Below, in pieces: positions 17,405 through 19,274 of a DNA stretch of 64,000 bases (its first letter is position 1; each line of letters begins with the position of its first letter). Source of the DNA: Pectobacterium polonicum (GTDB lineage Bacteria; Pseudomonadota; Gammaproteobacteria; Enterobacterales; Enterobacteriaceae); assembly GCF_005497185.1 (NCBI RefSeq), contig NZ_RJTN01000012.1, forward strand, positions 1-64,000, in the 5' to 3' direction. The notes beneath the pieces are model-generated. The model was given only the letters and a program-made list of their open reading frames with translations, did no database searches and was not told the DNA's origin. Position numbers and translations under genes: made by a program.

Positions 17405-18028
17405 TTAGTGAGAAGCAACCAGCGTAAAATCTTCGCCCTTGAAGACTTTTACCGGATTGCCGCGCTCTATCTGATGGTGGAACAGACGCCGCTGTGCGCG
17501 TAGTTCGGCGTGTTGTTGTTGCTGTAGCGTCTCCAGACGATAGGCGATGAGATAACAGGCCAGACGCTTGTTCGCGTGCTGACTGCGTTCGCTCTGCACC
17601 TTCACGGTGATACCGCTGGCGACATGAGTGGCACGAACGGCAGACTCGGTTTTGTTCACATGCTGTCCGCCGGGTCCGGAGGATTTGGTGGTTTCAAAAC
17701 GGATCTCGTTATCGGCAAACGCCTGCTCCTGATGAAAGCGTGCGACGCCGATAAACCAGTTCTTGCGTCCGCCACCTTTACGCCAGGGGCTATTGCATGT
17801 CCATTGAAGCGTACCGCACCAACTGGCAGCCAATGGTTCCGCCTGCTCACCGTTTAACAGAACCAGTGCGGAACGTAGCGTACCGGAACGTTTTCCTGCT
17901 TCGGTTTCGATGATTTCACAGTCGATGCCTTGCCGTGCGGCATCTCGCTTTAGTGCTTGCAATGCTTTTGCCGTTGCCAGCATGCATTCGTCCGGTCCCT
18001 GTGCAGCGGAGAGTTGAAGCAATATCAT
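17405..18028 (-). CDS. prfH: PrfH, release-factor-like peptidyl-tRNA hydrolase
   Basis: 207 residues, shorter than RF1/RF2. It keeps the catalytic GGQ motif in SSGPGGQHVNKTESAVRATH (about residues 117-136), while lacking the stop-codon-recognition domain with PxT/SPF, as is known for release factor homologue PrfH. Its ATG overlaps the rtcB stop by 4 bp (ATGA), so translation is coupled. Published work on RtcB2-PrfH operons shows PrfH releasing the peptide from ribosomes cut in the 16S decoding centre (colicin E3-type damage), after which RtcB2 reseals the rRNA. That role is inferred here from family and operon structure. Confidence 0.9.
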   Translation of the reverse strand: MILLQLSAAQGPDECMLATAKALQALKRDAARQGIDCEIIETEAGKRSGTLRSALVLLNGEQAEPLAASWCGTLQWTCNSPWRKGGGRKNWFIGVARFHQEQAFADNEIRFETTKSSGPGGQHVNKTESAVRATHVASGITVKVQSERSQHANKRLACYLIAYRLETLQQQQHAELRAQRRLFHHQIERGNPVKVFKGEDFTLVASH

Positions 18029-19146
18029 TTATCCTCCCCGCGCGTTTTGTAGGTGAGTACGGGTTTCAGGCGAGCAATTAACGTAATTAATCCTGCCTGC
18101 TGCATCGCGCCGATCACACTGTCTATCGGTTTGTAGGCTTCTGGTGCTTCCTGAAAAATCAGCTGCCTATCCTGACAAATCACACGGCTGCCGAAACGAG
18201 TACGCGCCAGTTGCTGGACGCTATACCGTGAAGACAGTCGATCCTTACACTCCGTGCGCATCCACTTTCTGCCTGCGCCATGTGCCAACGAATACAGGCT
18301 GTCTACGTGAGGTATAGGCTGCACGATATAGCTGTAGTCGCCGCGCGATCCGGGAATGATAACCGGGCCGCAGTCGGCGGGCGTCGCGCCTTTGCGGTGC
18401 AGCCAGCCGGAAATGCCCTCAATCGTCGTCGATGTCACCAGATTGTGGTTCACGTCCAGTGCGGCGGTGCCTTCCGTATGCCAGCGATCCAGCATGCGCT
18501 GTGCGATCAGCCGCCGATTGTGGGTGGCAAATGTCAACGCGAACTGATGCTGTTCCAAATAGGCCGCAGCGGCTGGCGTGTTGGCTTCAAGCCCTTGATG
18601 GCCGAATTCTCGCACGTGGGCTTCCAGTATGGTTTGCCCTAATCCGCGTGAGCCGCTATGCACGAGCAGCAGTAGCTGCTTAGGATCGATGTGCAGAGCA
18701 TGCAGCGTCTCTGGCTGATAAATTTCATCAAGCTGCTGCAATTCTGCAAAGTGGTTACCGCCGCCGATGGTGCCAAGGGAATAGCGGAAATCCGCCAGCG
18801 ATGGGGGAATTTCGATCTCGTCTTCCAGTGGCCCATCGATATTGCCAAGCCGTTTTTCCAACTTATCCAGCGAAATTTTGTTAGCGTTCAGGCTAGTGCG
18901 CCATAGCGCCATGCCGCAGCCGATATCATTTCCGACCAGAGCGGGGTAGAAGCGCTGTTGTGAAAAAAACGCCGCCCCAATGGGATAGCCACGGCCTGGG
19001 TGCAAATCTGGCATACCGGCCACGCGTACCATATCGGGAAGCTGTGAGGTAATTTGAAGCTGTTGGATTGCTTTATCTTCAATCCAGGTATTTTCCGTCG
19101 CGATCACACTGACGCGCGCCGAAATAGAGCGAATAGCATTGCCCAT
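18025..19146 (-). CDS. rtcB: RtcB-family RNA ligase (RtcB2 type, paired with PrfH)
   Basis: 373 residues, shorter than housekeeping RtcB (about 408). It joins 2',3'-cyclic phosphate (or 3'-phosphate) and 5'-OH RNA ends using GTP and manganese. Metal and catalytic motifs visible: DIGCGMALWRT (Cys ligand), TIGGGNHFAEL, VHSGSRGLGQ, DVNHNLVT, and SLAHGAGRKWMRTE near the C-terminus with the guanylylated histidine. Start ATG at 19146 with AGGA 8 nt upstream. Coupled to prfH by a 4-bp overlap. No rtcA or sigma-54 regulator rtcR is seen next to it, consistent with the ribosome-repair variant rather than the rtcBA operon. Confidence 0.92.
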   Translation of the reverse strand: MGNAIRSISARVSVIATENTWIEDKAIQQLQITSQLPDMVRVAGMPDLHPGRGYPIGAAFFSQQRFYPALVGNDIGCGMALWRTSLNANKISLDKLEKRLGNIDGPLEDEIEIPPSLADFRYSLGTIGGGNHFAELQQLDEIYQPETLHALHIDPKQLLLLVHSGSRGLGQTILEAHVREFGHQGLEANTPAAAAYLEQHQFALTFATHNRRLIAQRMLDRWHTEGTAALDVNHNLVTSTTIEGISGWLHRKGATPADCGPVIIPGSRGDYSYIVQPIPHVDSLYSLAHGAGRKWMRTECKDRLSSRYSVQQLARTRFGSRVICQDRQLIFQEAPEAYKPIDSVIGAMQQAGLITLIARLKPVLTYKTRGEDK

Positions 19147-19148
19147 AG

Positions 19149-19164
19149 ATCATCCTGCTGATCA
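19149..19164 (-). promoter_or_regulatory. Small hairpin holding the rtcB ribosome-binding site
   Basis: GATCA-GCAGGA-TGATC places the AGGA Shine-Dalgarno sequence of rtcB in the loop of a 5-bp stem ending 4 bases before the ATG. It could lower or gate initiation. The stem is short, so this is tentative. Confidence 0.3.
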
Positions 19165-19229
19165 ATTTAAAAATAGGGTAAGGCAGGCTACAGCTGGGGG
19201 GATAACGCAACGCGGAAAAGAATGCGGAA

Positions 19230-19274
19230 TTAGTCCCGAGATGTCCTGCAAAGAATCAGAGTAAGTGTTGTCAT
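19230..19274 (-). CDS. Possible 14-residue leader peptide upstream of rtcB-prfH
   Basis: An ATG at 19274-19272 preceded by AAAGGAG at a good 8-9 nt distance begins a 14-codon ORF, MTTLTLILCRTSRD, ending in TAA 83 bp before rtcB. The strong ribosome site ahead of so short a frame, on the same strand as rtcB-prfH, suggests a translated leader whose decoding could control the downstream repair genes. No strong attenuator hairpin was found between it and rtcB. It could also be the broken remains of a longer gene. Confidence 0.35.
   Translation of the reverse strand: MTTLTLILCRTSRD

Follow-up and report, generated by a model that had tools for sequence, protein, structure and literature searches.

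What purpose is served by a reading frame of 14 codons placed directly ahead of a pair of RNA-repair genes? The question is raised by a 64,000-nucleotide stretch of Pectobacterium polonicum DNA (contig NZ_RJTN01000012.1, positions 1 to 64,000; hereafter the window), in which the RNA ligase gene rtcB2 and the release-factor gene prfH are preceded by a short leader open reading frame (ORF) with its own ribosome-binding site. The original prediction, made from this sequence alone, described the leader, its ribosome site and the coupled genes, all of which are confirmed here (Table 1). Genes matching the family models TIGR03073 and TIGR03072 lie side by side on one strand, with the start of prfH overlapping the stop of rtcB2 in ATGA, and are thereby recognized as an RtcB2-PrfH repair operon. 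We find that the leader is very probably an RNA-level switch set within a translated frame and homologous to the PA5471.1 leader of Pseudomonas aeruginosa. The reading that we favour, and hold to be reasonably probable, is a three-state switch that acts at the level of translation and senses ribosomes stuck early in the leader.

The original prediction had pointed to drift of the frame, or to stops acquired at random in relatives, as the mark of a spurious leader. All 25 of 25 genus genomes match part of a 501-base query; 21 of the matches span the leader and four cover the chemoreceptor end only, in genomes without rtcB2 (two give no match and two only a relative at 34–42% identity). Leader start, frame and stop are kept in 20 of the 21 genus loci. 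The exception (L020, genome G007) has lost the leader stop by a one-base deletion and is a decaying copy, with rtcB2 in fragments and its start changed to ATA. In another locus (L018), the leader is intact and rtcB2 is apparently frameshifted near codon 61. Differences were measured over the 18 genus sequences that remain when L018, L020 and L021 are set aside. Averaged over all pairs, the difference amounts to 0.221 for the upstream 100 nucleotides (nt), falls to 0.025 at the ribosome site, rises to 0.130 across leader codons 2–5 and drops again to 0.012 across codons 6–14 and 0.010 between the leader stop and rtcB2. Fourfold sites of rtcB2 differ by 0.047 in codons 1–20, versus 0.28–0.35 in five later intervals. 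What is constrained is therefore the nucleotide sequence rather than chiefly the peptide, and this constraint continues into rtcB2. Judged from sequence comparison, this is a conserved RNA element, sharply bounded, that extends into the rtcB2 start.

Beyond the genus, rtcB2-type genes over the family cut-off were found in 24 of 198 family, 6 of 369 class and 11 of 398 phylum genomes, and were joined by relatives from named genomes. Because the best 80 of 561 such relatives were used, and about 20 of the 116 distinct loci belong to one genus, the sample leans to close relatives. In 133 of 137 rtcB2 loci, prfH lies downstream. A DNA pattern made up of ribosome site, start and a leader core occurs at 121 of the 137, versus 1 of 48 RtcB loci below the cut-off. 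Removal of duplicates and of three loci with too little upstream DNA reduced the 137 to 116, and in 104 of these the core lies 19–25 nt from the A of the leader start codon (L070, L140 and L169 were left out of the tally of core and length). This count is slightly low, because L070 has a leader by eye, the script having taken another ORF, and L030 has one by the score of model R1 described below (92.8 bits). Carriers include Enterobacterales, Pseudomonas, Ralstonia, Tahibacter and other betaproteobacteria. No convincing leader element was seen at the distant rtcB2 loci L137–L140, L169, L171 and L172, and three Comamonadaceae-type loci are at most weak by model R1 (L119 none, L130 18.1 bits, L135 12.6 bits).

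The leader has 12–16 codons in 105 of 107 tallied loci and 19 in two, and the core takes only the offsets 19, 21, 22 and 25 (43, 8, 34 and 19 loci, respectively). Offsets 19, 22 and 25 share one frame, and the eight offset-21 loci (six in one Ralstonia-like clade, L136 and L168) use another. As three lineages thus read the core in another frame, it is the RNA and not the peptide that is conserved. The offset-21 ORFs close after 12–14 codons, 15–21 nt past the core start, which argues for translation of the leader as far as a stop lying just past the core. Several loci depart from the common layout. Divergent leaders without the standard core are found in L037/L063 (Enterobacillus), where the linker carries a long extra hairpin, and in L119, L130 and L135 (Hydrogenophaga, Rhodoferax and relatives), those of L130 and L135 having 19 codons. 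In L065, L032/L097 and L038 there are inserts between leader and rtcB2, with the leader kept; we take the insert ends in L065 and L032 to be enterobacterial repetitive intergenic consensus (ERIC)-like.

Model R1 was built from the 44 representatives used for the stem analysis. On its own genome, the window element, whose row is part of the model, scores 98.8 bits, and the next best match 16.5 bits. The held-out members Escherichia coli E2348/69 and P. aeruginosa PA7 score 110.7 and 55.9 bits, and the best of 47 RtcB loci below the cut-off scores 12.8 bits. In the scan of the 398 phylum genomes, every one of the seven matches scoring above 30 bits sits immediately ahead of rtcB2. At E ≤ 0.01, 55 genomes give a match of some kind; hits under 27 bits were taken to be chance and not individually inspected. 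Four of the 11 rtcB2-positive phylum genomes give no strong R1 match, and one of these (G762) has rtcB2 at a contig end. Within E. coli, the element is matched in 5347 of 5426 genomes, and in 4066 of them a single place accounts for 80% or more of the query. In one K-12-like strain (AML002_ev01; L234:730-860), the loop of stem C holds a repeat of about 127 bases, presumably ERIC-like, and the annotation gives both rtcB2 and prfH as incomplete pseudogenes.

The original prediction reported that no attenuator hairpin was found; this is overturned by the comparison, from which mutually exclusive stems emerge. Stem A pairs the leader ribosome site (GCAAAGG) with the core (CCUUUGC). Stem B pairs the core and leader end (GCAGG-C, CCAGG) with the linker (CCUGG, G-CCUGC), and the linker also pairs with the rtcB2 ribosome site (stem C) and with the first rtcB2 codons (stem D). 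The 104 sequences gave 47 representatives, of which L037, L065 and L096 were dropped for long inserts, leaving 44. In an arm-swap permutation test, which ignores relatedness and in which one L093 arm was mis-set, the sequences' own arms beat 10000 of 10000 permutations for A, B, C and D (z-scores −6.2, −9.3, −6.0 and −6.7). A 24-sequence subset gave −4.8, −7.1, −4.2 and −4.4. Four mismatched arm-pair controls fell within the permuted range (9118, 2238, 9028 and 7611 of 10000 permutations at least as good). The share of sequences above their median partner is 0.93 for B and 0.77 for C, versus 0.61 for A and 0.55 for D, so that B and C carry most of the signal. Column by column, 8 of 11 stem B pairs have changed on both sides, and the covariation score of 0.205 compares with 0.146 after shuffling and no more than 0.105 after sliding. 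Stems A and C have a covariation score of 0.145, higher than in any of 500 shuffles (0.114). Stem D, whose columns align badly, is covered by the arm-swap test alone.

In the window, these stems map onto four segments (Table 1). Stem B is shorter here than in general, consisting of GCAGG (19249-19245) with CCTGC (19187-19183) and GGGA with TCCC (19202-19199), and the linker measures 83 nt. The hairpin over the rtcB2 ribosome site was also in the original prediction; it is present, at 19163-19148 and not, as given there, one base away at 19149-19164. In silico, the RNA thus offers two mutually exclusive pairings, one of which closes the rtcB2 ribosome site. We computed the energy needed to open the rtcB2 start in 48 loci (the 44 representatives with L108, L032, L038 and L190), holding unpaired an assumed ribosome footprint of 16 nt on each side of the P-site codon start; because the footprint is assumed, the agreement of the core offset with the codon of the energy jump is partly built in. 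On average, opening costs 11.4 kcal/mol in free RNA, 10.4 when the ribosome sits on the leader AUG and 13.2 when it sits on the last codon. The AUG state needs less energy than the last-codon state in 46 of 48 loci, all except L031 and L108 (PA7). With the leader shuffled, the difference is 0.05 versus 2.82 kcal/mol and is positive in 23–28 of 48 loci (four sets) versus 46. Expected base pairs in stems A, B, C and D (44 loci) are 5.7, 7.2, 5.5 and 1.7 in free RNA; 0.0, 11.9, 4.0 and 0.7 with the ribosome on the AUG; and 0.7, 0.0, 6.2 and 3.3 with it on the last codon. The window itself gives 9.3 kcal/mol free, 9.9 on the AUG, about 9.0 on codons 2–4 and about 13 from codon 5 on.

Table 1 Features of the rtcB2-prfH locus, by position in the window
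Feature	Positions	Strand	Evidence or remark
Leader ORF, 14 codons, MTTLTLILCRTSRD (ATG at 19274, stop ends 19230)	19230..19274	minus	Frame kept in 20/21 genus loci
Leader ribosome-binding site AAGGAG, ending 8 nt before leader ATG	19283..19288	minus	
Segment 1: CTG 19294-19292 and CAAAGGA 19290-19284, over leader ribosome site; pairs with segment 2 (stem A)	19284..19294	minus	Fold; arm-swap test
Segment 2: TTCTTTGCAGG 19255-19245 and GGGA 19237-19234, leader second half; pairs with segment 1 (A) or 3 (B)	19234..19255	minus	
Segment 3: TGCGTTATCCC 19209-19199 and GTAGCCTGCC 19191-19182; pairs with segment 2 (B) or rtcB2 start	19182..19209	minus	
Hairpin GATCA-GCAGGA-TGATC with rtcB2 ribosome site AGGA (19156-19153)	19148..19163	minus	In 4/4 modelled states
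Segment 4: first rtcB2 codons, predicted closed fold with 19195-19181 (TGCCT x GGGCA, GTAGC x GCTAT, AGC x GCT)	19128..19146	minus	Fold; low synonymous change in rtcB2 codons 1-20
rtcB2, RNA ligase RtcB family, PrfH-linked type, 373 aa	18025..19146	minus	TIGR03073 621.9 bits; PRK09588 model NF007153 583.1 bits; PF01139
prfH, peptide chain release factor H, 207 aa	17405..18028	minus	TIGR03072 333.5 bits
Candidate sigma-70 promoter: TTGCGC 19350-19345, 17 nt spacer, TATTAT 19327-19322	19322..19350	minus	Inferred by eye

According to the three-state reading, ribosomes running through the leader would cover segment 2, segment 3 would pair with segment 4 and rtcB2 would be shut. With no ribosome on the leader, stem A (segments 1 and 2) would hold segment 2, and segment 3 would again tend to close rtcB2. 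A ribosome held on the first codons would cover segment 1 and leave segment 2 free; stem B (segments 2 and 3) could then form, and the rtcB2 start would be easier to open.

The nearest known system is that of P. aeruginosa, where PA5471.1 couples ribosome inhibition to armZ expression and induction by ribosome-targeting drugs depends on the leader (PMC12057347, PMC13041342, PMC3516279; statements on published work, here and below, rest on excerpts of the papers). There, armZ and prfH are cotranscribed and ArmZ is RtcB-like (PMC12057347, PMC3516279), and the E. coli ArmZ homologue, ykfJ, lies beside a release-factor gene and is inducible by 4-azaleucine (PMC3516279). The relation of ArmZ to RtcB and the E. 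coli homologue are already in print. So is a 2015 entropy scan in which the E. coli region before prfH,ykfJ is hit 98 of a table (PMC4448311). RtcB2-PrfH mends the cut decoding centre in vivo in E. coli ATCC 25922 (PMC9223846), whose operon has the same gene pair as the window, and the 5′ region of E2348/69 has the element at the score given above. The excerpts of PMC9223846 mention neither a leader nor Pseudomonas or ArmZ. The literature searched, as far as its excerpts go, contains no statement that the leader is common to other rtcB2-prfH operons or serves ribosome repair.

PA5471.1 occupies the same site, before an RtcB2-type gene and prfH (armZ, PA5471; prfH, PA5470), with a leader of 13–14 codons and the same RNA core, and the window RtcB2 shares 64% identity with the ArmZ orthologue of PA7. 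At 13 codons, the PA7 leader, MIQFSTLCRLRLA, carries the Gln3 and Phe4 described for PA5471.1 (PMC13041342). The two differ in that PA5471.1 is published as a case of transcription attenuation serving MexXY efflux, in the linker (212 nt in PA7 versus 83) and in the leader peptide, which shares with MTTLTLILCRTSRD only Leu-Cys-Arg and some positions. The PA5471.1 family is, however, defined by function and not by this peptide, and we assign the window leader to it with high confidence. An early leader stop raises ArmZ (PMC13041342), and a leader deletion reported to give constitutive expression (PMC12057347, PMC13041342) maps by its numbering to the stem A arm of PA7. Both effects fit the three-state model, and also the published terminator model.

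Several observations weigh against a three-state translational switch. The opening energy with the ribosome on the AUG is below that of free RNA in only 36 of 48 loci. PA7, the sole species with published genetics, lacks the difference between start and last codon that the window has, its order being reversed (12.4 versus 11.6 kcal/mol), and nine further loci, including four from Xenorhabdus, shift by less than 1 kcal/mol. In the window, the AUG state is not under the free state (only codons 2–4 are), and the closed hairpin stays most populated in all modelled states, with stem B in the minority. Folded alone, a 201-nt stretch does no better than shuffles (z 0.91), the signal being visible by comparison only. 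Two-sided changes in stems A and C (5 of 14 pairs) are no more numerous than in shuffles (353 of 500), and a slide by +1 yields more of them. Published expression evidence is confined to Pseudomonas and to the induction of E. coli ykfJ noted above, and the published model for PA5471.1, with its changes in armZ mRNA, is itself one of transcription attenuation (PMC12057347, PMC13041342).

In that published model, full translation of the leader permits a terminator before the gene and a stalled ribosome prevents it. U-rich stretches lie ahead of rtcB2 in many loci, and one weak terminator-like site is found at the window leader end (19238-19225). Yet simple pattern scans, with Rho-dependent termination outside their scope, place terminator-like sites between leader end and rtcB2 in 1 of 44 loci, the window itself, against 1.1 expected, and in none of 421 bases of PA7. 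Moreover, covarying stems C and D reach as far as the ribosome site and first codons of rtcB2, an extension for which a terminator alone would have no use. We consider transcription attenuation of this kind rather unlikely.

Translational attenuators of the ermC type also have four segments, in which occupancy of the leader by a ribosome releases segment 2 for pairing with segment 3, so that segment 4 is exposed. The window leader shares this plan, with the differences that the leader's own ribosome site serves as segment 1 and that no conserved stall peptide is seen; it works like an erm leader, yet for want of such a peptide we do not class it as one. A stall of the erm kind, in which the growing leader peptide encounters a drug or signal and translation halts at one particular codon, would find some basis in the Leu-Cys-Arg core common among leaders and in Gln3 and Phe4 of PA5471.1, which matter in a cca mutant; in the wild type, however, Q3K and F4L are without effect (PMC13041342). 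The codons ahead of the core vary freely, the eight loci in three lineages use another frame for the RNA core, and the Xenorhabdus core reads Leu-Phe-Arg with matching RNA changes, all of which make a peptide-specific arrest very improbable. We give very little credence to autogenous control, in which RtcB2, PrfH or a cut 16S fragment would bind the element directly and the leader ORF would be secondary. In the scanned genomes, the element is confined to the immediate surroundings of rtcB2, and RNA-binding products are encoded beside it, but such binding is putative, and the kept start, stop and frame would go unexplained, as would the published early-stop effect (PMC13041342).

Around the leader, the locus has chemoreceptor genes on both sides of the rtcB2-prfH pair, and its nearest named relatives, among the best 80 of 561, are from Pectobacterium (92–98% protein identity). 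Four genus genomes (L022–L025) keep the chemoreceptor neighbour and have no rtcB2, so the pair appears to be gained or lost as one unit. The TATTAT of the candidate promoter is kept in all rows but one of the genus alignment; the promoter scan did not call this promoter. A sigma-54 promoter and 16S ribosomal RNA mimicry were weighed by eye only and dropped. Just upstream of the promoter region, the sequence varies by species (L003, L007, L009, L010, L013, L017 and L019), and several of these loci share a repeat-like end, CTTGAAGTATGACGGG; the upstream border of the operon thus seems to have been rearranged. Rfam 15 gave no match at gathering score in seven member loci, and in 17000-20000 of the window only two sub-threshold chance matches.

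Induction of RNA repair ligase genes by translation stress has a precedent in E. coli rtcBA with RtcR, which differs from the switch described here in belonging to another RtcB branch and in having an activator protein in place of a leader. The original prediction proposed that the leader is a damage sensor translated only by intact ribosomes. The sensor part stands in so far as the leader is conserved, framed and part of a switch coupling its translation to rtcB2; translation only by intact ribosomes is not needed, and is unsupported because the anatomy better fits a ribosome parked early on the leader. From this anatomy, we infer control at the level of translation, stalling near the start as the signal, a response to cut ribosomes and a reset by PrfH. 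A ribosome that initiates without elongating, whether blocked by a drug or cut at the decoding centre, would turn the repair pair on, and PrfH, by clearing such ribosomes, would reset the switch. We put forward only tentatively the further step that the leader is a sensor of ribosome injury as such: cut ribosomes might still bind the very strong leader site, be unable to move on and, by parking on the first codons, open rtcB2-prfH, whose products would release and mend them, resetting the switch. ArmZ, the Pseudomonas efflux regulator, might then be a repair-operon ligase that retained this ancestral sensor of damage and was co-opted for drug resistance.

The leader would thus provide a sensor with a specific, testable anatomy ahead of repair genes in many gamma- and betaproteobacteria. 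It would join the field of MexXY drug efflux, where, in the excerpts cited, the leader is treated as a special case, to that of RtcB2-PrfH repair. If this is true, what PA5471.1 reads would be the injured or blocked ribosome as such.
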